A stretch of DNA of 34,896 bases, taken from NCBI GenBank assembly GCA_024274875.1, contig JAJSAH010000017.1:1-34896 (forward strand). Reading direction: 5' to 3'. A program made the position numbers and the translations under genes. Under the pieces are notes generated by a model. It did no database searches. It was not told the origin of the DNA and saw nothing but the letters and a program-made list of their open reading frames with translations. The stretch comes from an archaeon (GTDB lineage: Archaea; Micrarchaeota; Micrarchaeia; CAILAH01). This document shows positions 3,002 to 32,853 of the stretch, piece by piece; within the stretch, counting starts at the first letter, position 1; each line of letters begins with the position of its first letter.

Positions 3002-4882
3002 GTGAAATTATTTTCGCATATAATATTCGTTGCGTTAGTTCTGTATTTGCTTGCAGGATGCATACAAAATCCTGCAGAATATCAAGAATATGTCATACAA
3101 TCAACTCAACAAGTTATAAAAAATCCTGAATGCACTTGTTTAATCTGCACAAACAGCACGGGAAGTTGGTTCAAAGATGTTTTCGTCGTAAATGATTTGT
3201 CTGATGGATCATGCTTTTTCAAGCAAAATTGCAGCAGATCGTTCATATACTACTACTTAATGGAAGATGACTTTAATTATGTAAAGGATTTTGGCGTTGG
3301 GCAGGGATCATCATACGCAGAATTTGAGGAATCAAATCTCAGGTGCAACCTCGCTGAAAACTATGCGCTGAGAATTCTGTACAGCAAATACAGAGCGCCC
3401 ATGTATGACTCAAATGTGTTTTTCGACACCAGCGAAGCAGATACTGTCGAATGCATGCTTGAGAAAGGAGTCATCCCAATCTATGTGATGTACTCAGCAG
3501 GCACATATGTGCAGGATGATTGGATAGGAGAATTTGTTGATCAAAGCGAAGTTAAAGGAGCGCCAGTATTTATATCCCCTGAAGCATTTTTCACAAAAGA
3601 TCTTGCTGAAAATGTAACGCGGCAAATCGATGCAATATATGATAATTGCGAGATTGAAGAAATAGAAGGTGATGTTTGCGAAGAGTATGATGAATTTGGA
3701 GATTGCAAAAAGTATGAAACTGTTTATGAGAGAGGATGCAAAGTGGCGATATTCCCTATTCAGAACAGCGATGAGGAGTTTTTTGAGGCTATTGATTCAA
3801 TAGATAAAGAGACAATTAATGATAAGGTGTCGCTGGTTATGTTGAATTTAGATATAAACAAGCAAAACTATGAATGCGATGCAGGGTATGCGCTTGCTGA
3901 GATAATGAACCGAAGCAGGTATGTATTAAATAGGTACAGAAAACCATCATTCCTTATTTTTTCAATAGATCCTTCATGTTCCAGCTCGGCAGACCGCATA
4001 TACGGAACATTGTATACATCTATTCCAGTGATGAGAACTGTTGGCATTATTGGCGCCATATATTCTCAATACTCAGATTTCAGCGGCAATCCATTTAATC
4101 GCGGAGAGAATGCATACAGCACAAAGGATTCAGATATGTGGTTCAAGTTATGCAAATATTATAACTCCCCGCCATACAAAAAAGAGCCGATAATATACCA
4201 AAGCGATGGAGTCAACATAACAAGCGTATGCGATTATGCCAGCGTGCATGGAATAGATGCTATCGAGACCGCTGCGCTTGACAGATTTGATTCGGAAAAA
4301 GTCGGAGAGGATGCGATAGATGATTACGATATGTGCATCTCAGAAATCGATTTTGGAGATATTGAAGAAATAGCAGAAAAATGGAGCAAATGGGATGATT
4401 ACCGCGTCAGTGCAACAGATGATGATTGCGCATACGGATACCCAGATGTAGAAATAATGGCAGAAAGATGCAGTTTAAGCAGGCATCTGCTGAGAGCGCT
4501 GTACAAGTTTGATATGATGCCTCAAAGCTGTGATGAATGGTATGATTTTGAAAAAGAAGTGAATGATGCTGGAGTGATTGATTTAGAAATTATTAATCCT
4601 GATAGAGATTTTGAAACGGAATTGGGCAGAGTTGCATTTTTATACGCGCTTAAGAAAGATAATGAAGCAATATACTACCAAGTAATCAACAGTATAGGGA
4701 ATTATGAGAGAGCGGAACATTCAGGAAGAATAAGCATAAGCAAGAATTCGCTGTATAAAATCTGCGAGCCGAGCGCAAGGAGTGCATATGATTCAACACC
4801 ATGCAAAGTGCTGAAACACTACAAAGAGTATAGGGACGAATGCGATATGAATGATTTGATTGATTGGATTAAAAAGCACTAA
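3002..4882 (+). CDS. Predicted secreted Cys-rich lipoprotein, unknown function; alternating strand/helix pattern may indicate a TIM-barrel/hydrolase-like domain
   Basis: GTG start 2 nt after the previous stop; signal peptide with lipobox LLAGC (MKLFSHIIFVALVLYLLAGC); 626 aa; segments GVIPIYVMYSAG, KPSFLIFSIDP and VGIIGAIYSQYSDF look like buried strands. Confidence 0.8.
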   Translation: MKLFSHIIFVALVLYLLAGCIQNPAEYQEYVIQSTQQVIKNPECTCLICTNSTGSWFKDVFVVNDLSDGSCFFKQNCSRSFIYYYLMEDDFNYVKDFGVGQGSSYAEFEESNLRCNLAENYALRILYSKYRAPMYDSNVFFDTSEADTVECMLEKGVIPIYVMYSAGTYVQDDWIGEFVDQSEVKGAPVFISPEAFFTKDLAENVTRQIDAIYDNCEIEEIEGDVCEEYDEFGDCKKYETVYERGCKVAIFPIQNSDEEFFEAIDSIDKETINDKVSLVMLNLDINKQNYECDAGYALAEIMNRSRYVLNRYRKPSFLIFSIDPSCSSSADRIYGTLYTSIPVMRTVGIIGAIYSQYSDFSGNPFNRGENAYSTKDSDMWFKLCKYYNSPPYKKEPIIYQSDGVNITSVCDYASVHGIDAIETAALDRFDSEKVGEDAIDDYDMCISEIDFGDIEEIAEKWSKWDDYRVSATDDDCAYGYPDVEIMAERCSLSRHLLRALYKFDMMPQSCDEWYDFEKEVNDAGVIDLEIINPDRDFETELGRVAFLYALKKDNEAIYYQVINSIGNYERAEHSGRISISKNSLYKICEPSARSAYDSTPCKVLKHYKEYRDECDMNDLIDWIKKH

Positions 4883-19524: not shown

Positions 19525-19557
19525 ATAAAAAAGAAAAAATTAGCCAGTCAACTGGCT
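19525..19557 (-). terminator. Hairpin plus T-rich tract at the S-layer gene 3' end; the stem overlaps the last codons
   Basis: Minus strand AGCCAGT-TG-ACTGGCT (complement of 19542-19557) then AATTTTTTCTTTTTTATTTTA. Confidence 0.7.
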
Positions 19558-22248
19558 GATGAACTGCTGCGCTGCAGTCATTGTGTCCTCAGCAGAGTAA
19601 CCGGCAACGACAATCTTGCCAGTCTCAACTTCTTGGACAACCACATCACCAGGCGCCTCGAGCGCAACATCAGTTCCGCTGAGGATTGCCTCTGTGACAG
19701 TGTTGACCGCAGGACCACCAACAGCAATCACCGTCTCAGCGCTCGCCGCATCACTGTCAAGCACTACGAGATCGGTCGGCACATCCTGTCTCTCACCAAG
19801 GTTAGCTGCATCAGCTACGCTCAATTCGCAGCTAACTCCCTCAAGACCAGTCACAGTCGCATCTGCGCAGGTTACACCGCCTGTCTCAACATCGATTGAT
19901 TTAACAGTCAATGTCGAGCCGTCGCTCAGATCGATTGAGTCGCCCTCAACCAAATCAGAGTAGGTGGTAACCGTGCCCTCGGTCGTGCCTTCACCAACCG
20001 ACTCAAAGATGAACTGCAGGTTGCCCACGTCCTTCGCTAAGTAGACTGTGTAAGATGTGGTTCCGGTGTCGCCAGTGTCCACATAACTGCCCCTGTGCGT
20101 GTAGTACCTGGTCTCATCTATCTGCGTGCTCGAGTTCGCAAAATTGGTCCTCGTAGAAGAGCTGATGTCATTTGACAGGTCCGCCCTGTAAATCACATAG
20201 TCCTCTTCAGAACCATCTGTCTCGCCAGAGAAGTCAAACTCGAGGTCCCATGCACCACCTGAAGGAGCAGTGCCTGCGCTCTCATCAGTTTTTTCAACTG
20301 CTCTAATTGACAGCCAGTCTGCGTCGTTGTTGCCAGCGTCTTCACCGATGTTTATCAACACAAGGAAGTTGCTGTTCGCAGCAGACAAAGTTCCTGAACC
20401 GTTCAAATCGTTGTTGGTCGTGTTCCACTCACCGATCTCAAACCACATCGGGTACTCCGCACCGCCGAAGTTGTAGTTTACCTTCCAAGCATCAGTCGCC
20501 GGCTCAGTCCTCAAGCCATTAGTGTCTGCGTTCTTAACAGGCACATAGTCGCCGCCAACCTCAACCAAAACTGTTTGGTTGCCAGTCCATGATGCGTCAT
20601 CTGTCGCGGTGTAGTTGTACACTGTCGGGCAGTAGACAAACTCATCGGTTGTAATCTCCTCGCTGTTTCCATCCTGGAACTTGAAGATCTTCTCGCTCGC
20701 TGACACGACAATCACTTTGTCGTTCGTGCTTCCAGAAGTTCCCGCCTCATAGTCCTCAGTGCCATCGTGGTTCGAGGATGTAGAGTTGTGGTTGAACCTG
20801 TATGAGCTCGCACCCTCCAAGGCAAACTGCACATCAACATAGTCGGAATCCTGAAGATCCAAACCTGTGAAAGTGAACCTCCACCTTGTCGGGTCTGGCA
20901 ACACATCAACTGAGTCGCCGGTGTTCAGGTTCTTGTTCTCAGTAGAGAACAGCTGGATCTTGTGCAACCTGTCGGCCTTCGGGCTTGAGTCATCAAGGTC
21001 CTTCCAAATCAACTTGACCTTCCATTTCTTGTTTGTCTCATCATCTATCTTCTTGCCGCTCTCAAGCGTCAACTCATTGGAGAACACAGCAACTTCCGCC
21101 CATTTCTCAGTCAAGGTATAACCTGGAGCTACCTGGTACACGCGAACCCTGTATGTGTTGTCGCCTGCCTGGATCTCTGTTGTTGAACCTGCAGACACAA
21201 CCTTGTTCGCAATCTCCTCACCTGCAGAGTTCTTCACTGAGAAAATCGCAAGGTCGCTTGACTGACTACCGGACGCTGGCTTAAGGTCACCGAGCACCAA
21301 AGTGTTGCCGTCGCCCAAATCAAGCGATTCACCGATCTGCAACTTAGGAGAGTACGCGCTCTCTTTCGCAAGCTTTATCTTGCCGCCTTCAGTCGCGCTT
21401 GAACCACTTCCACCGTTAGGCTGTTCCATATCAGAGATGATCCACTCTTCGCCAAGGTACTTAACCTTAACCCTGTGGTTCTCAGTTGCCTTGTCTGTGT
21501 TGTAGTCGCTGTGCGATGAGTTCACACAGTATGCCCAATCACCCCCAACAGAGTCCTGGCATACGGGGATACCGTCCGTTCCAAACACAATCTCATACGC
21601 AACCTTTGTGTTGGATGACCTAAAGTCGCCATCATCATTGTTGAATGCGACTCCATCGGACTTAGCATACAAATACTGCTCCTCTTCATACTCAGCGCCT
21701 GCCTGCGTGTCCTTTGGAACATAGTCGGCAAGCGGAGTGAAATCACTTCCGGTCACCTTAATTGCGTTAATCGTCGCGGAACTCGTTCCTGAGTTGAATG
21801 GGTCAGGCGTTGCAGTAATTGTGTCTTGGGACCTGTCCTTCATGTCCTCATCAATATAGTCATCGATAAGCATTTCCATCGCATACGCGCCAGCTGGGAT
21901 CGTTCCCGCAGGTGATTCCAACTCAAGCGTTACGGATTTGCTCAACACTTCGCACACGCCTGCCTCGCCGGCAGCTTCGCATGACAAGCCATCCAAACCC
22001 GTAGGCGTCGCAGTCACTTCACTCTGCTTAAATGCGCGGTTGCCCAACACAGCCGCAATGTTCGCAGCAGCCACTCCGTCACTAGCTTTCGCAGCAGCAC
22101 CAACCACAACCTTTGCCAAAGGCATTCCGTTGGCGTTCACAAGCTCCGTATTGCCAAACGTCACGGAGCCGGCTCCCAGCAAAGCACCGCCTAACAAGGC
22201 CGCGCCTGCAGCAAGAGCCACAATTTTCTTCGTGTTCAGACTTTTCAT
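19540..22248 (-). CDS. S-layer protein (Methanococcales-type S_layer_N / S_layer_C family)
   Basis: Signal peptide MKSLNTKKIVALAAGAALLGGALLGAGSVTFG; C-terminal VIAVGGPAVNTVTEAILSG...GKIVVAGYSAEDTMTAAQQFISQL; Ser/Thr/Asp-rich, multiple N-x-S/T sites. Confidence 0.9.
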   Translation of the reverse strand: MKSLNTKKIVALAAGAALLGGALLGAGSVTFGNTELVNANGMPLAKVVVGAAAKASDGVAAANIAAVLGNRAFKQSEVTATPTGLDGLSCEAAGEAGVCEVLSKSVTLELESPAGTIPAGAYAMEMLIDDYIDEDMKDRSQDTITATPDPFNSGTSSATINAIKVTGSDFTPLADYVPKDTQAGAEYEEEQYLYAKSDGVAFNNDDGDFRSSNTKVAYEIVFGTDGIPVCQDSVGGDWAYCVNSSHSDYNTDKATENHRVKVKYLGEEWIISDMEQPNGGSGSSATEGGKIKLAKESAYSPKLQIGESLDLGDGNTLVLGDLKPASGSQSSDLAIFSVKNSAGEEIANKVVSAGSTTEIQAGDNTYRVRVYQVAPGYTLTEKWAEVAVFSNELTLESGKKIDDETNKKWKVKLIWKDLDDSSPKADRLHKIQLFSTENKNLNTGDSVDVLPDPTRWRFTFTGLDLQDSDYVDVQFALEGASSYRFNHNSTSSNHDGTEDYEAGTSGSTNDKVIVVSASEKIFKFQDGNSEEITTDEFVYCPTVYNYTATDDASWTGNQTVLVEVGGDYVPVKNADTNGLRTEPATDAWKVNYNFGGAEYPMWFEIGEWNTTNNDLNGSGTLSAANSNFLVLINIGEDAGNNDADWLSIRAVEKTDESAGTAPSGGAWDLEFDFSGETDGSEEDYVIYRADLSNDISSSTRTNFANSSTQIDETRYYTHRGSYVDTGDTGTTSYTVYLAKDVGNLQFIFESVGEGTTEGTVTTYSDLVEGDSIDLSDGSTLTVKSIDVETGGVTCADATVTGLEGVSCELSVADAANLGERQDVPTDLVVLDSDAASAETVIAVGGPAVNTVTEAILSGTDVALEAPGDVVVQEVETGKIVVAGYSAEDTMTAAQQFISQLTG

Positions 22249-24120: not shown

Positions 24121-25674
24121 TTAAAATGCGTTTTTGTCATATGTGTTCAAAACAATCCTCTGCAATTCTATCGGCTTTATCTCCTCAGCAACCTGAAGCG
24201 CGTATGATAATTTTGATTCGCTGTCTGAATAAATCTCCAATATAACATCTCCTTTCTTTATCTTATCGCCATGCTCAACTTTCAGAATTATGCCTGCGCC
24301 CTTAACCTTCGGAGATCCTGCAGCCCGCGCAATGCGTGATATCTTTTTGTTGCAAACATACTCAACCCTTCCCGACCGCTCTGCATACAATTCACCCTTA
24401 TACTGCCCTATGGGAAGATTATCAATGCTTAGGTTAGGGCTTCCGCCCTGCGCCTCAACAATTTCTCTTAACTTGTTGAACGCTTTCCCAGATTTCACAA
24501 TACCTATTGCGCTGTCAAACCCATTGCCTTTCTCAACTAAACCTGCAGATTCAAGCAGAGAACCTGCAAGCATGCATCCTTTGTTTAAAAGATCTTGCGG
24601 TCCGCCTCCCTGCAAAACTTCTATCACATCTTTGCATTCCAATGCCGGACCCACTCCGTACCCTATCGGGTCGCTTCCTTCGGTAACAAACACGCGCGTC
24701 TTGATTCCAACGCGAGTTCCTATATCGATGAAATCCTTCGCAAGCTGTTTAGCTTTTGCAGGATCCTCCATTTTTGCGCCTCTGCCCACCGGTATATCTA
24801 TTACAGCATACTCTGATCCCGCCGCCTTCTTCTTAGCCATTATGCTTGCGAGGAGCATGCCGCGCGGGTCAAGCCTGAAAGGATACCGTATCCTTATTAG
24901 CTTGTCATCTGCAGGAGCAAGGTGCGCTCCCCCGCCCCATACAACGCATCCATGTGTCTTTAAAACAATGTTGCGGATTTCTTCTATTGAGAAATTAACA
25001 TCGCATAATGTTTCCATCGTATCAGCAGTTCCTGCCGCAGATGTGATCGCGCGCGAAGAAGTTTTTGGCATATACGCGCCTGCTGCAGCGAGTATAGGCA
25101 CAACAATCATTGTTGTGCGGTTGCCTGCAACGCCGCCTATGCAATGCTTATCAACTATGGGATGCACGCCTAAATCTAAAGTATCTCCTGAGTTCATTAT
25201 AGAATATGTCAGCGAAACTGTCTCCTCCGCGTTGAATCCCCTCGTATATACGCCTGCAACAAACACTGCAAGCTCTGCCTCGCTCAGCTTGTTTGCCATG
25301 AGGTCTTTGATTATTGTATCTATTTCACTTGATTTCAGCTCGCCTCCGTCAAGCTTCTTTTTTATGTACTCAATTGACGCAGGCTTTCTCAAAGGCATTA
25401 TGTAAACTTTATCACCGGGATTTAGCTTAAGCTGGTCGGCAATCTCGATGAACACCCCAACCTCGCCTTCCTTAACAAGAGTTGATGAAGTGTCTACGAT
25501 TGCTGAAAGCACTTTATCTTTGCGAATTATCTCTACGCGGTCGTTAAGGAATAGGTCGCGTTGCCGCGCCTCGGATTCATTGAGAACAACTATAGGTAAT
25601 CCTGCCCCTATATCAAATATCTTGACCTTGTATGAAACCTTTATGTGCTCTCTTGCCTTGTCGTCCATATTCAA
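24121..25674 (-). CDS. deoA: AMP phosphorylase (thymidine phosphorylase family)
   Basis: VDKHCIGGVAGNRTTMIVVPILAAAGAYMPKTSSRAITSAAGTADTMETL; N-terminal archaeal extension; 517 aa. Confidence 0.93.
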   Translation of the reverse strand: MNMDDKAREHIKVSYKVKIFDIGAGLPIVVLNESEARQRDLFLNDRVEIIRKDKVLSAIVDTSSTLVKEGEVGVFIEIADQLKLNPGDKVYIMPLRKPASIEYIKKKLDGGELKSSEIDTIIKDLMANKLSEAELAVFVAGVYTRGFNAEETVSLTYSIMNSGDTLDLGVHPIVDKHCIGGVAGNRTTMIVVPILAAAGAYMPKTSSRAITSAAGTADTMETLCDVNFSIEEIRNIVLKTHGCVVWGGGAHLAPADDKLIRIRYPFRLDPRGMLLASIMAKKKAAGSEYAVIDIPVGRGAKMEDPAKAKQLAKDFIDIGTRVGIKTRVFVTEGSDPIGYGVGPALECKDVIEVLQGGGPQDLLNKGCMLAGSLLESAGLVEKGNGFDSAIGIVKSGKAFNKLREIVEAQGGSPNLSIDNLPIGQYKGELYAERSGRVEYVCNKKISRIARAAGSPKVKGAGIILKVEHGDKIKKGDVILEIYSDSESKLSYALQVAEEIKPIELQRIVLNTYDKNAF

Positions 25675-25678
25675 TCAA

Positions 25679-26578
25679 TCACCTTGAAAGCAGCATTATC
25701 GACTGCGGAGGCACTATGCCCTTCTCAGTGATGTATGCTGTGATATATCTGGATAATGTAAGATCAAACGCAGGGTTTCTTATAGATAGATTGCGCGGTT
25801 TCTTGCCCGATAAAACTTCTGATGGATCGCGCTCTTCAATAACCTCCTGCACGCCCCATCGCGTCAGCATATTAAACTTGTGCAGTTCTGCCGCGGAATA
25901 GAATGGGATGTCGTATTCATACGCAAAATGCGCAATTGCTGAGGTTCCAATCTTGTTTATTAGATTGCCTGATGCAGTTATAGCATCCGCGCCAACGAAT
26001 ACTGCATTGCAGTTCTTCATGTAAACCTGTGCTGCGCTGTCAACGATCAAAGTCGTCGGTATTCCATGCGACGACAATTCTTTCGCAGTTTTAACTCCTT
26101 GGAATTTCGGGCGCGTCTCGCCAACAACCACTGAAAACTCCTTGCCATCGTCATATGCCTGCTTGAATATGGATACTACTGTAGAGCTGTGGCAATGAGT
26201 AAAGTATCTGCCGCCGTTTCCTACTAATGCTGCTCCATAATCTACAAGCATGATGAACTTCTCCTTCATCTCTGCGAGCAATGTTTTTCTCAATGTTCTT
26301 AACTGTTCCTTCATCTCATCTACTGATGAATACTCATCGCTAGCTATGCGCGAGATTATGAACTTTAAATAATTTCTCAGCATAGGTTCAGTCGGACGCG
26401 CTGATGCAATCGCATCAGCAGTTACAAGCATTCTCGAAAAATACGCATTGCGGTCATTCCCTCTGAATGAATCTGATTCAAGCACCATCGCCTCAACAGC
26501 GGCTTTTGCTATGTTGCGCGCGCCCTGCACTTTAAGGTTCTTTATGTCGCTTATTATTTTCTTCGCTTTGTTATTCAT
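25679..26578 (-). CDS. e2b2: Ribose-1,5-bisphosphate isomerase (eIF2B-alpha/beta/delta family)
   Basis: VQGARNIAKAAVEAM; VVGETRPKFQGVKTAKELSSHGIPTTLIVDSAAQVYMKNCNAVFVGADAITASGNLINKIGTSAIA; start MNNKAKKI at 26578. Confidence 0.9.
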   Translation of the reverse strand: MNNKAKKIISDIKNLKVQGARNIAKAAVEAMVLESDSFRGNDRNAYFSRMLVTADAIASARPTEPMLRNYLKFIISRIASDEYSSVDEMKEQLRTLRKTLLAEMKEKFIMLVDYGAALVGNGGRYFTHCHSSTVVSIFKQAYDDGKEFSVVVGETRPKFQGVKTAKELSSHGIPTTLIVDSAAQVYMKNCNAVFVGADAITASGNLINKIGTSAIAHFAYEYDIPFYSAAELHKFNMLTRWGVQEVIEERDPSEVLSGKKPRNLSIRNPAFDLTLSRYITAYITEKGIVPPQSIMLLSR

Positions 26579-26600
26579 AAATGAGTATTTGCAATATAAC

Positions 26601-26606
26601 TTTAAA
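26601..26606. promoter_or_regulatory. Palindromic TTTAAA between e2b2 and ftsZ
   Basis: Centre ~28 bp from ATG 26632 (+) and ~25 bp from ATG 26578 (-). Confidence 0.6.
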
Positions 26607-26631
26607 AAAGTTGACAAACTTAATTCTTCGT

Positions 26632-28351: not shown

Positions 28352-28823
28352 ACTGACTATAAGCGCATTGGTTTCGGGAGGAAAGGCTTCTGCCGGCCCG
28401 CCGTTGGGTCCGGCGTTGGGGCCAACTGGCATTAACATCGGCCAGGTGATTGCTGCAATAAACGAGAAGACAAAGGATTTCGCAGGCATACAGGTGCCGG
28501 TGAAAGTTATTGTTGACCCGTCCACAAAAGAATTCGAGATTGAAGTTGGGTCGCCTCCTGTCAGCGCTCTTATAAAGAAAGAGTTAGGGATTGAGAAAGG
28601 CGCAGGCAACAGGGAATCCAGCGCGGGGGACATTAAAATGGAAAGCGTGGTAAAAATTGCTAAAATGAAAATGGATGCGCTCAACACCCCATCGCTCAAA
28701 AACGCTGTGTGCCAGGTTCTCGGCACATGCATAAGCATGGGCGTGACATGCAGCGGGAAAGATTGCAAGGATGTGATCAAAGAAGTCAAGCAGGGGGTGC
28801 ACGATGCGCTTCTCTCTGAGTAA
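28344..28823 (+). CDS. rpl11: Ribosomal protein L11
   Basis: GGKASAGPPLGPALGPTGINIGQVIAAINEKTKDF; VLGTCISMGVTCSGKD; overlaps nusG by 8 bp. Confidence 0.97.
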   Translation: MAKLTISALVSGGKASAGPPLGPALGPTGINIGQVIAAINEKTKDFAGIQVPVKVIVDPSTKEFEIEVGSPPVSALIKKELGIEKGAGNRESSAGDIKMESVVKIAKMKMDALNTPSLKNAVCQVLGTCISMGVTCSGKDCKDVIKEVKQGVHDALLSE

Positions 28824-30429
28824 GCACTTCATAATCGCATTGCTTATTTTTTCATCATGCGCATTCGCAGACAGGGTTAAATGGTCATCTTATTACAACG
28901 CAGATGTAACTGGCGGCATATTGGTGGATTCCAATTACATATATTTAAGCGCGATGGACTCATTATCAAAACTGCAGATGCAAGATGGGAAAACTATCTG
29001 GAGCATTCAACTCAAAGGAAGATTGCTCAAACCTGTTAAAGCAGGATCGTTCATCGTGGCAGTTTCAAAGGAAGGGACTGCATACATAGTCAGCAGTTCA
29101 ACAAAATCTGTTGTAAAAACAGTAAACATAAGCGGTTCTGTGCTGAATGACCCGCTTGCAATATCAAACAATCTATACCTGCCCACAAGCAATGGGATAG
29201 TTGCGTTAAATGTAAACAGCGGGAAGGTGATGTGGACTGCAAACGGATGCGTTTCGCAGGCAACGCCTCTGCTTGTAGGGGATCGAATATTTGCGGTCTG
29301 CGATAATGGATATGTGAAATTCCTATCGGCATCAAGCGGGCAGGTTGTTGAAGAGACCAAATACAAGAGCATATTTTGGAAATCATCACCAGCGTTGAGC
29401 AAAGGAAAGATATTCATAGGCAGTTTTGATGGGAAAGTGTATGCTGTATCTCAGCAATCATCAAAGAGCATAAGTTGGGTGAGAAATACTATTGATGGAA
29501 GTTCAGTGAGTTCGGACATAGTTATAGATGGAGATGACATACTCATTTGCACTGCTGGCGGGAAACTATACTCCTTGGGATTCGACGGCAAAGAGAAATG
29601 GCACGCTGAAGTTGATAGTGAAATTGCAGCAAGGCCTATTATAACGCCGAATGGAATTTACGCAATTACGGATAGCGGAACATTTTATGGAATGGATAGG
29701 AATGGAAACATCAATTGGGTGTATGAAACCGGATTGCCAATCAAATCAGACGCATACAAAAAAGGCAGCATGATTTATTTTGTCTCAAAAAATGGAACGC
29801 TTGCAGCGCTATCAACATCGTCCTGCAACATCATATTTCCATCTCAAAATGAAGATGTGTCAGGGATAGATGTGCTTGAAGTTGAGGTTGATGCATATGC
29901 AGACACAAAAATAAACAGCGTGCAGGTTATGGGAAGTTCCGGAAGATGGATTGAGGCAGAACTCAAAGACGGATCATATATAGCAAGAATTCCATCATCG
30001 GAAATACCTTTGGGGGAATCAGAGATTTTGTGCAGGGTCGCAAGCGAGGATGGGTTTGAGCTAGAGCCTTACAGCTCGGTCGCAGTAATCAAAAAAAATA
30101 CTGCGAAAAACATGATTGTTGAAGCGCCTTCGAATGTTGGCTACGGGTCATCATTCAAAATCATAATAAAAGATGAAAATGGTGCGCTGCTTGATCATGC
30201 GAACATCGTTTTTGGAACGCTCAATTACAGGAATGTATACGGAGAAGTGGAAATTACCCCTCCAAAGAAAGGCACTTACAACCTCGAAGTAAGAAGAGCT
30301 GGATACAAGCCATACAAAAGCACTGTAACTGTGGGAGATGACTACACAATCTTTGGAGTTGCAATAATCATCACTCTTTTATTATTATCAGTCTTTTATG
30401 TATTTTATAAAAGGTGGATGGAGGAGTAA
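28804..30429 (+). CDS. Surface PQQ-like beta-propeller protein with signal peptide and C-terminal TM anchor
   Basis: Signal MRFSLSKHFIIALLIFSSCAFA; repeated blades such as GIVALNVNSGKVMWTANG, KLYSLGFDGKEKWHAEVD, TFYGMDRNGNINWVYETG; TM FGVAIIITLLLLSVFYVFYKRW; 20-bp overlap with rpl11. Confidence 0.85.
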   Translation: MRFSLSKHFIIALLIFSSCAFADRVKWSSYYNADVTGGILVDSNYIYLSAMDSLSKLQMQDGKTIWSIQLKGRLLKPVKAGSFIVAVSKEGTAYIVSSSTKSVVKTVNISGSVLNDPLAISNNLYLPTSNGIVALNVNSGKVMWTANGCVSQATPLLVGDRIFAVCDNGYVKFLSASSGQVVEETKYKSIFWKSSPALSKGKIFIGSFDGKVYAVSQQSSKSISWVRNTIDGSSVSSDIVIDGDDILICTAGGKLYSLGFDGKEKWHAEVDSEIAARPIITPNGIYAITDSGTFYGMDRNGNINWVYETGLPIKSDAYKKGSMIYFVSKNGTLAALSTSSCNIIFPSQNEDVSGIDVLEVEVDAYADTKINSVQVMGSSGRWIEAELKDGSYIARIPSSEIPLGESEILCRVASEDGFELEPYSSVAVIKKNTAKNMIVEAPSNVGYGSSFKIIIKDENGALLDHANIVFGTLNYRNVYGEVEITPPKKGTYNLEVRRAGYKPYKSTVTVGDDYTIFGVAIIITLLLLSVFYVFYKRWMEE

Positions 30430-30431
30430 AT

Positions 30432-30923
30432 ATGGCATTGCCAAAGCATAAGCTGATAGAAAAGAATGTTATTAGGGGGTTTTTGGGCGAAGGGCAGTTT
30501 CAACCTGCAGGAGTCGATCTAACTGTCTCTAAAATATTTGAGTTTGCGGATGATGGCAGAATTGATTATGACAACCGCGAACGCAAGATAAGCGATGCAA
30601 AGGAGATTGGTTTTGATGAAAATGGATATGCGCATTTAAAGAAAGGCGCGTACAAAATAAGGTATAATGAAATAGTATGCATTCCAAAAGATGCAGTGGC
30701 ATGGGTCCTGCCGCGATCATCATTGCTTAGATGCGGAGCAAGCCTTGAGAGCGCTGTATGGGATCCTGGATATGAAGGGCGCGGGGAATCCCTGCTGGTT
30801 GTTTATAACGAGCACGGTCTGAAGCTCAAGAAGAATGGCAAAGTTGGGCAGATGGTATTCATACAATTGGTTGAGGAAGCAAAAGAAGGATATAACGGAG
30901 CGTACCAAGGTGAGAATTTATGA
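30432..30923 (+). CDS. dut: Archaeal dUTPase / dCTP deaminase family
   Basis: GEGQFQPAGVDLTVSKIFEF; VLPRSSLLRCGASLESAVWDPGYEGRGESLLVVYNEHGLKL. Confidence 0.9.
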   Translation: MALPKHKLIEKNVIRGFLGEGQFQPAGVDLTVSKIFEFADDGRIDYDNRERKISDAKEIGFDENGYAHLKKGAYKIRYNEIVCIPKDAVAWVLPRSSLLRCGASLESAVWDPGYEGRGESLLVVYNEHGLKLKKNGKVGQMVFIQLVEEAKEGYNGAYQGENL

Positions 30924-31642
30924 AGAAATATGGTTATGTTGCATTGGTATTTGGCACAGTTTTTTTGTTTATGCTTGCTTCAGGATGCACGGGCGCAGGA
31001 GCCACTAAAACATGCACTGATGACAGCAAATGCGCAACATGGCAGTTCTGCGGTGAAAAAGGAGTGTGCAAGCCGAGACCCGGATACTGCGCGAGAAGCG
31101 CAGATTGCGGAGATGTGCAGAAATACAAATGCAATGTGAAGACGCATAAGTGCGAATTTAATGAAGGGTTCTGTTCATCAGATGCAGATTGCGAGAATTG
31201 GCAGGTGTGCGACACAGTTTTGGGGGAATGTAAAACAAAAGCAGGATACTGCGACTCAAACGAGTTCTGCAAGAATTCATGGGAGTACTGCGATGATGAA
31301 ACCCACACATGCAAACCGCAGCCCGGTAAATGCTCTGATGATTTCGACTGCAATGCATGGGAACTGTGCGATGAAAAATCCAACATCTGCGAGCCGATTG
31401 AAGGCAGGTGCAACATCGATGCAGATTGCGATGATTGGGAATACTGCGATACAAAAAAGAACACTTGCAAAGTAAAGAAAGGGTTCTGCAACGATGAAGG
31501 CGACTGCAACAAATGGGAGTTTTGCAACCTGCAAACAAAAAGGTGTGTTCCAAAAACAGGTTACTGCAATGTTGATGAGGACTGCACAAATGGATACTGT
31601 AACGAACGAACTCATGAATGCACTCAAGCGGAAAATGTGTAA
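30920..31642 (+). CDS. Lipoprotein made of eight tandem 4-Cys repeats
   Basis: Lipobox LASGC; repeated C-x5-C-x5-6-C-x6-C units such as FCSSDADCENWQVCDTVLGECKTKAG; ATGA overlap with dut. Confidence 0.88.
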   Translation: MKKYGYVALVFGTVFLFMLASGCTGAGATKTCTDDSKCATWQFCGEKGVCKPRPGYCARSADCGDVQKYKCNVKTHKCEFNEGFCSSDADCENWQVCDTVLGECKTKAGYCDSNEFCKNSWEYCDDETHTCKPQPGKCSDDFDCNAWELCDEKSNICEPIEGRCNIDADCDDWEYCDTKKNTCKVKKGFCNDEGDCNKWEFCNLQTKRCVPKTGYCNVDEDCTNGYCNERTHECTQAENV

Positions 31643-31650
31643 GTGAGAAC

Positions 31651-32853
31651 ATGGGCAGGAGGAAGATATTGTTCATCATGTTGGATGGGATTGGCGGCCT
31701 GCCTGTTAACGATGGAAAAACTGAATGGGAAATCACTCCTACGCCAAACCTGGATTCGCTGGCGCGAAAAGGGGCGTACGGGCTGATGCATCCTATAAAA
31801 ATGGGAGTTATACCTGGAAGCGATACATCACAACTTAATATACTTGGGTATCCGCCCAAAACATACTATCCTGGAAGGGGACCTCTGGAAGCGCTTGGCA
31901 TAGGCATGGAGGTAAGTGAAAACGATGTTGCTTTCAGGGCAAATTTTGCAACTGTTGATAACAGCTTTAATGTCATAGATCGAAGGGCAGGAAGAATAGA
32001 TACTAATGCGGCATCCGAGCTCGCAAAAGCGATAAGCAATATTGAGATTGATGGAATGCAATTCATATTTAAAAACAGCGTTGAGCACCGCGGCGCACTC
32101 ATCGTGCGCGGGAATGGATTGAGCGCAAATGTTGAGGACACCGACCCTCATGCAACTGGAGTGCAGGTTGCGCAGCCCAGCATAAACAAAGAAAATGCAA
32201 AAATTGTTCGAGCAATCAACAAATACACCGCAAAAGTGCATAAAATACTGAAATCGCATCCTTTGAACAAAAACCGAGATAATCCAGCAAACATATTGCT
32301 TCTTCGCGGCGCAGGTAAGATGAAAAAAGTTGAGCCGTTCAAAAATAAGTATGGCATGAAAGCGTGCTGCGTTGCTGGCGCTGCGCTATACAAAGGCATT
32401 GCAAGATATATTGGAATGGATGTTATAAATGTAAAAGGCGCTACCGGCACATACGAATCAGACCTTAATGCAAAGGCGGATGCTTCATTGAAAATGCTGG
32501 ATAAGTATGATTTTGTATATTTGCATGTTAAAGGAATGGACAACGCAGGGCATGATGGAAGCGTTAAAAAACGCATGCACATGATTAAGAAAATCGATCG
32601 CATGGTAGGGAGATTGCTCAGCGCAGATGCAGTAATAGTTGCCACAGGAGACCATTCTACTCCAACCGTGAGAAAATCGCACTCATTTGAGCCCGTGCCT
32701 TTCCTCGTTTCTAATGTAGATGCAAGGGACTATGGAATTAAAAAATTCTGCGAGGTTGAATGCAGAAAAGGAGAATTGGGAATTTTTAATGGAGAGTTAG
32801 CATTGAACATAACGATGGCGTATGCAGGAAGGGTTGAAAAATACGGAGAATAG
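31651..32853 (+). CDS. apgM: 2,3-bisphosphoglycerate-independent phosphoglycerate mutase (archaeal type)
   Basis: MGRRKILFIMLDGIGGLP; IPGSDTSQLNILGY; YPGRGPLEALGIGM; VKGMDNAGHDGS; ATGDHSTP. Confidence 0.95.
   Translation: MGRRKILFIMLDGIGGLPVNDGKTEWEITPTPNLDSLARKGAYGLMHPIKMGVIPGSDTSQLNILGYPPKTYYPGRGPLEALGIGMEVSENDVAFRANFATVDNSFNVIDRRAGRIDTNAASELAKAISNIEIDGMQFIFKNSVEHRGALIVRGNGLSANVEDTDPHATGVQVAQPSINKENAKIVRAINKYTAKVHKILKSHPLNKNRDNPANILLLRGAGKMKKVEPFKNKYGMKACCVAGAALYKGIARYIGMDVINVKGATGTYESDLNAKADASLKMLDKYDFVYLHVKGMDNAGHDGSVKKRMHMIKKIDRMVGRLLSADAVIVATGDHSTPTVRKSHSFEPVPFLVSNVDARDYGIKKFCEVECRKGELGIFNGELALNITMAYAGRVEKYGE

Follow-up and report, generated by a model that had tools for sequence, protein, structure and literature searches.

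A conserved Micrarchaeota lipoprotein with tandem four-cysteine units as a putative envelope strut

Introduction

The Dickkopf N-terminal domain (Dickkopf_N) holds ten Cys residues, and each LDL-receptor class A module holds six. In the squash knottin EETI-II, five residues separate the successive Cys residues II, III, V, and VI, which pair as II–V and III–VI, and the inhibitory loop of squash inhibitors precedes the cystine-stabilized β-sheet (CSB) core. Knottins have a CSB core organized around Cys II, III, V, and VI (PMC2984590). In squash inhibitors, Cys II and III flank a 3-10 helix, after which comes a hairpin (PMC2659701), and Min-23 is a stable, autonomous CSB unit with two disulfides (PMC6259850). 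The Cys-rich repeats of Myxococcus TraA have been proposed to act as a rigid stalk (PMC3325183). In haloarchaea, the most common lipobox is LAGC (PMC2945643). Within the Micrarchaeota, 'Ca. Mancarchaeum acidiphilum' Mia14 has been co-cultured with Cuniculiplasma (PMC5498576).

DPANN envelope proteins are largely uncharacterized. Here, we describe a lipoprotein gene of a Micrarchaeota genome (assembly total, 833 kb) located in a window of 34,896 nucleotides, i.e., the whole stretch of DNA analyzed (contig C17). We propose that its product is a disulfide-braced strut or scaffold of the envelope, composed of modules with a two-disulfide knottin core and working together with a neighboring β-propeller protein, a reading to which we give about even chances.

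Architecture of the Cys-repeat lipoprotein

The coordinates of the lipoprotein gene, its units, and the adjacent genes are listed in Table 1. The ATG of the lipoprotein gene overlaps the stop codon of the preceding dCTP-deaminase-like gene (ATGA), and the translation contains 33 Cys residues. The protein showed the pattern of an archaeal lipoprotein, with a signal peptide followed by LASG-C23. The lipobox residues G22 and C23, together with all 32 unit Cys residues, were invariant in 41 homologues; this supports the exported lipoprotein proposed in the initial annotation, with C23 as the predicted lipidation site. The mature chain has 32 Cys among 217 residues, many Asp and Glu residues, and a net charge of −15. 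It stops six residues past unit 8 and consists only of the units, without a head domain.

Table 1. Lipoprotein gene, its units, and neighboring genes in the window
Feature	Coordinates	Strand	Description
PQQ-type β-propeller gene	28804..30429	+	Signal peptide and C-terminal TM segment; Pfam PQQ_2, E 2e-25
dCTP-deaminase-like gene	30414..30923	+	Pfam DCD; between propeller and lipoprotein genes
Cys-repeat lipoprotein gene (P0001)	30920..31642	+	ORF, 240 aa; conserved in 41 homologues
Signal peptide (residues 1–22) and lipobox L19-A20-S21-G22/C23	30920..30988	+	From sequence; G22 and C23 invariant
Unit 1 (C32–C50)	31013..31069	+	Loops C1–C2, C2–C3, C3–C4: 5,5,5
Unit 2 (C57–C78)	31088..31153	+	Loops 5,7,6
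Unit 3 (C85–C104)	31172..31231	+	Loops 5,5,6
Unit 4 (C111–C131)	31250..31312	+	Loops 5,6,6
Unit 5 (C138–C157)	31331..31390	+	Loops 5,5,6; within modeled units 5–7
Unit 6 (C164–C183)	31409..31468	+	Loops 5,5,6; within modeled units 5–7
Unit 7 (C190–C209)	31487..31546	+	Loops 5,5,6; within modeled units 5–7
Unit 8 (C216–C234)	31565..31621	+	Loops 5,4,6
apgM, 2,3-bisphosphoglycerate-independent phosphoglycerate mutase	31654..32853	+	Pfam PhosphMutase; housekeeping

The eight four-Cys units and the additional lipobox Cys noticed at the outset were confirmed, and positions 31013–31621 extend exactly from C32 to C234. The spacing first given, C-x5-C-x5-6-C-x6-C in units of ~25–28 residues, agrees with the modal unit, C-x5-C-x5-C-x6-C-x6 with a period of 26 residues, but the second loop spans a wider range (x4–7). 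Units 1, 2, 4, and 8 each differ from the modal form in a single loop, by one or two residues, and all inter-unit linkers are six residues long. The consensus of the canonical units was C-x2-D-x-D-C-x2-W-[QE]-x-C-[DN]-x2-[TS]-[HN]-x-C-x-P-[KR]-x-G-[FYR]. Trp was present in 83% of these units, Gly in 87%, and Asp in 64% at two positions. The lipoprotein had 28 sliding four-Cys windows that fitted the unit spacing. When the mature chain was shuffled 20,000 times with its 32 Cys residues kept, the mean was 0.33 such windows and no shuffle gave more than 6, so the regularity of the units is not due to chance.

Conservation and evolution of the array

A profile search based on the 41 homologues detected the family in 101 of 301 genomes of the phylum (E ≤ 1e-5), a count that includes a handful of partial matches or matches inside other, larger Cys-rich proteins; the two named homologues belong to Micrarchaeota MAGs. 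Presence and absence of the gene on an EF-2 tree (58 genomes, rooted by midpoint only) required 5 changes, compared with a mean of 19.8 after shuffling. The gene was missing throughout clade f4/f8 (13 genomes sampled; f numbers are arbitrary family labels assigned by the search) and throughout the nested clade of f5, f9, f11, and f15 (12 genomes sampled), with three further scattered absences on the tree that incomplete draft assemblies may explain. Past the lipobox, there were eight units in f1, 10 in f14 and f19, 11 in f10 and f20, and 12 in most other families. As for repeat-number variation across strains, which the initial annotation proposed to check, the count was fixed by clade, as far as sampled. 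The gene is inherited vertically with clade-specific unit numbers.

In the 12-unit proteins, identity at non-Cys positions was 33% between units at the same position, 23% between units at other positions, and 24% among units within one protein. Because same-position units are more alike and no tandem repeat of the unit was found at the DNA level in the lipoprotein gene, the sequences indicate that the array is ancient and position-specific. Recent slippage was ruled out by the same absence of a DNA tandem repeat, together with the positional distinctness of the units and the clade-fixed count, and array length and order have therefore been kept. Relative to another f1 genome (G001), the lipoprotein was 62% identical, as compared with 64% for apgM and 55% for the propeller protein, and thus showed no sign of fast diversification.

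Other occurrences of Cys-rich sequences were recorded in the phylum. Stretches of the same type of unit lie in larger ORFs of 497–3155 aa (G047:C20, G024:C75, G023:C29, and G297:C46), and the module is therefore also used within other Micrarchaeota proteins. The homologue in G054 (L017:1492-3360, an open frame of 636 codons) carries a long Cys-poor insert that splits the array after the first units. Just downstream of the lipoprotein gene, two f14 genomes encode a different Cys-rich protein (L074:8556-10328 and L079:8268-9977) of 570–591 aa with 70-odd Cys residues, CC-containing repeats, and no Pfam family. A second lipoprotein-like copy in the genome that contains the window was rejected, since the weak match on contig C8 was due to chance and that protein lacks Cys repeats. 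A phage origin was likewise rejected: tblastn against 50,697 phage records and a peptide-pattern search of IMG/VR both gave no match.

The distribution of the gene bears on the suggestion of the initial annotation that the protein makes contact with a host or partner, i.e., that the array is an adhesin reaching past the S-layer to bind another cell. A lipid-anchored, extracellular protein with multivalent repeats would suit this role, and the Trp and Asp residues of the units could make repeated binding sites. Host-associated members exist in the Micrarchaeota (PMC5498576), and TraA provides a proposed stalk of Cys-rich repeats (PMC3325183). However, the lipoprotein lacks a head domain, shows a uniform number of units within clades and no fast diversification, and is absent from all sampled genomes of two clades. 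Moreover, homologue searches of the phylum genomes found no homologue in G033, tentatively identified as the host-associated, co-cultured Mia14. If G033 is Mia14, association with a host does not generally require the lipoprotein in this phylum, although other lineages may differ. These observations weaken host or partner contact as a general role, and we consider an adhesin unlikely.

Predicted fold and disulfides

AlphaFold2 modeled the whole lipoprotein from a 3-row alignment with a pLDDT of 82.4 and a pTM of 0.39, and units 5–7 from 24 rows with a pLDDT of 94.6, a pTM of 0.71, and good mutual confidence of the three units; the overall shape of the eight-unit array may be rod-like, as first suggested. 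The rows for units 5–7 came only from the window and related loci, and overlapping stretches of the same repeats were included among them, so the depth gained in this way does not count as independent evidence. In the predicted fold of units 5–7, each unit consists of a one-residue bridge (strand), a short helix, and a β-hairpin, in that order. Squash knottins (EETI-II) overlaid a single unit at 0.7–0.8 Å over 22–24 residues with both models. The knottin match is local, and a Foldseek search against the PDB returned nothing at E ≤ 0.001. Sequence searches of solved structures brought no convincing match, with E values of 0.016 for an insulin-like growth factor and 0.014 for an EGF-family protein. 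By analogy with the pairing in EETI-II, we infer that the units should pair C1–C3 and C2–C4.

The genome that contains the window encodes an exported DsbA-like protein with a CPYC motif, while DsbB, DsbD_TM, and VKOR were not detected in it. DsbA-like (Thioredoxin_4) matches were found in 22 of the 31 gene-bearing genomes versus 11 of 29 others, a difference that could come from relatedness alone; the other nine gene-bearing genomes had no Thioredoxin_4 match. VKOR occurred in all 13 sampled f4/f8 genomes and in 0 of the 47 other sampled genomes (60 relatives in total). It was rejected as a partner, being absent from every gene-bearing genome and present in a clade without the lipoprotein gene. 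The gene for the exported DsbA-like protein is closely preceded by one for a membrane protein of 158 aa whose C-terminus forms a MarR/DUF7343 winged helix (L088:596-1072, contig C15), possibly a membrane-bound regulator.

Metal binding by a metallothionein-like or zinc-ribbon array without disulfides would accord with the Cys density, the many acidic residues, and the net charge of the mature chain. Against this, the lipoprotein, on the exported side of the membrane, contains no CxxC or CxC motif and keeps a fixed x5/x5/x6 spacing; the model and its fold matches are disulfide miniproteins, and an exported DsbA-like enzyme is present. We regard such an array as very improbable; disulfides rather than metal-binding Cys residues, as first supposed, are probable. 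Inhibition of a protease by every unit in the fashion of squash inhibitors is about equally improbable: squash trypsin inhibitors are the closest solved structures to single units, and the Ascaris carboxypeptidase inhibitor ranked first among the Foldseek matches for the three-unit fragment, but these fold matches were not significant and the squash inhibitory loop has no counterpart beyond the six-residue linker. A redox buffer or DsbA substrate sink, in which reversible disulfide oxidation is the function, would fit the high Cys density in the envelope, but the invariance of all Cys residues in a fixed geometry is that expected of structural disulfides, and we find this the least probable alternative.

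Genomic context

In the window, genes for an Spt5-like protein, L11, the PQQ β-propeller, the dCTP-deaminase-like protein, the lipoprotein, and apgM form a same-strand run. To examine this context, we compared 42 neighborhoods from 18 labeled families. In f1, f2, f10, f24, and f25, the same-strand gene immediately upstream encodes a secreted, membrane-anchored propeller, whereas in f21 and one f12 genome the propeller gene is one gene off; according to Pfam, the propeller is of the PQQ type in f1 and of the NHL type in other families. The propeller gene was non-adjacent in over half of the families. The remaining neighborhoods have no common genes, so the propeller link is recurrent rather than strict, and the propeller gene is a probable functional neighbor of the lipoprotein gene. 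The dCTP-deaminase-like gene was found at the same place in one other f1 genome (G001). The apgM gene adjoins the lipoprotein gene in f1, f10, f18, f21, and some f6 genomes; because apgM is a housekeeping gene, part of this gene order may be inherited inertia.

Elsewhere in the window, positions 19540-22248 (−) encode a 902-aa S-layer-like protein (PF05124, E 2e-11), with the two halves of the profile matching opposite ends of the protein. Matches occurred in 54 of 60 relatives, and S-layer presence did not separate gene-bearing from gene-lacking genomes, so this co-occurrence is uninformative. An AMP/thymidine-phosphorylase-like gene (24121-25674, −) and an IF-2B-type gene, possibly ribose-1,5-bisphosphate isomerase (25679-26617, −), are immediate neighbors, an arrangement also seen for the AMP salvage pathway of archaea. 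Two consecutive ORFs at 6-2999 (+; 997 aa) and 3002-4882 (+; 626 aa) had no Pfam match at E ≤ 1e-5.

Proposed role in the envelope

The architecture of the lipoprotein is well supported, and the data also show invariant Cys residues, wide vertical conservation, and a recurrent gene order. In the proposed role, the protein would be exported by Sec and anchored in the membrane at its N-terminus as a lipoprotein. Each 26-residue module would fold as a two-disulfide cystine-stabilized β-sheet, and the string, resembling Min-23-type miniproteins in series, would form a disulfide-braced strut or scaffold between the membrane and the S-layer. There, it may dock envelope proteins, foremost the membrane-anchored β-propeller protein encoded next to it. 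An extended form of this proposal seems to us quite unlikely. In it, the lipoprotein would be central to the envelope of a large Micrarchaeota branch as a naturally multivalent array whose modules have a knottin core and dock the S-layer or its glycans as well as the propeller through repeated Trp and Asp positions; the unit number would set the distance between membrane and S-layer, and membrane proteins of giant viruses would use the same module type.

The lipoprotein is near-universal in the clades that bear the gene and evolves about as slowly as the neighboring enzyme. With its clear signature and a small, probably easily refolded unit, it is directly testable.

Comparison with known systems

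The lipoprotein shares with TraA (TIGR04201) an envelope location and tandem Cys-rich repeats, whereas the TIGR04201 repeat has three invariant Cys residues and TraA carries a PA14 domain and MYXO-CTERM. An NCBIfam scan (E ≤ 10) gave no TIGR04201 match in the lipoprotein, and only the whole-protein TraA model was hit, at 7.7 bits against a cut-off of 750. LDL-receptor class A modules are similar as small serial disulfide modules with acidic residues, and five of the 41 homologues matched them at E ≤ 0.1; the lipoprotein itself, with four Cys per unit, had no match to PF00057 at E ≤ 10.

The resemblance to Dickkopf pointed out in the initial annotation was confined to likeness. Cys spacing is similar, 21 of the 41 homologues gave weak sequence matches to Dickkopf_N, and draxin was a weak fold match to the model, but the lipoprotein scored 14.9 bits (E 0.035) against the PF04706 cut-off of 25, and membership in the family was rejected. 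The ten Cys residues of Dickkopf_N form one domain, whereas the lipoprotein has four per unit and all of its units are alike.

The closest Pfam family was DUF5885 (PF19232), which the lipoprotein matched at 48 bits (cut-off 33.2, E 1.5e-12) and which matched all 41 homologues at E ≤ 0.1. The matches fell in several stretches, the best covering columns 30–111 of 265, and this partial coverage indicates that the repeat region is common to both rather than the whole family architecture. Both have tandem four-Cys units, but the array described here makes up an archaeal lipoprotein by itself, with no further domain. As for the function of DUF5885, we found no literature naming the family. Among predicted viral structures, there were 24 fold matches at E ≤ 0.001, mostly to pithovirus, cedratvirus, and pandoravirus proteins, several of which are labeled transmembrane. 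The archaeal and giant-virus arrays may reflect either common descent or convergence, to which Cys-rich repeats are prone.

Knottins and inhibitor cystine knots have three disulfides, one of them threaded; with four Cys residues, a unit of the lipoprotein can form at most two internal disulfides, leaving no third disulfide and no knot. The units lack the first and fourth Cys residues of knottins, occur in tandem, and have no detectable sequence homology to them. The likeness is to the CSB core of EETI-II and Min-23, with its short helix followed by a β-hairpin, and Min-23 also has four Cys residues. In the AlphaFold2 model, the order of strand residue, helix, and hairpin may correspond to that of a Min-23-like core, and the overlay of a unit on squash knottins was 0.8 Å over 24 residues. 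The family is real and conserved across a large part of the Micrarchaeota, with small disulfide modules arranged in tandem on an anchor in the envelope, and it would represent a natural tandem of the two-disulfide core that engineers cut from a plant knottin (Min-23).
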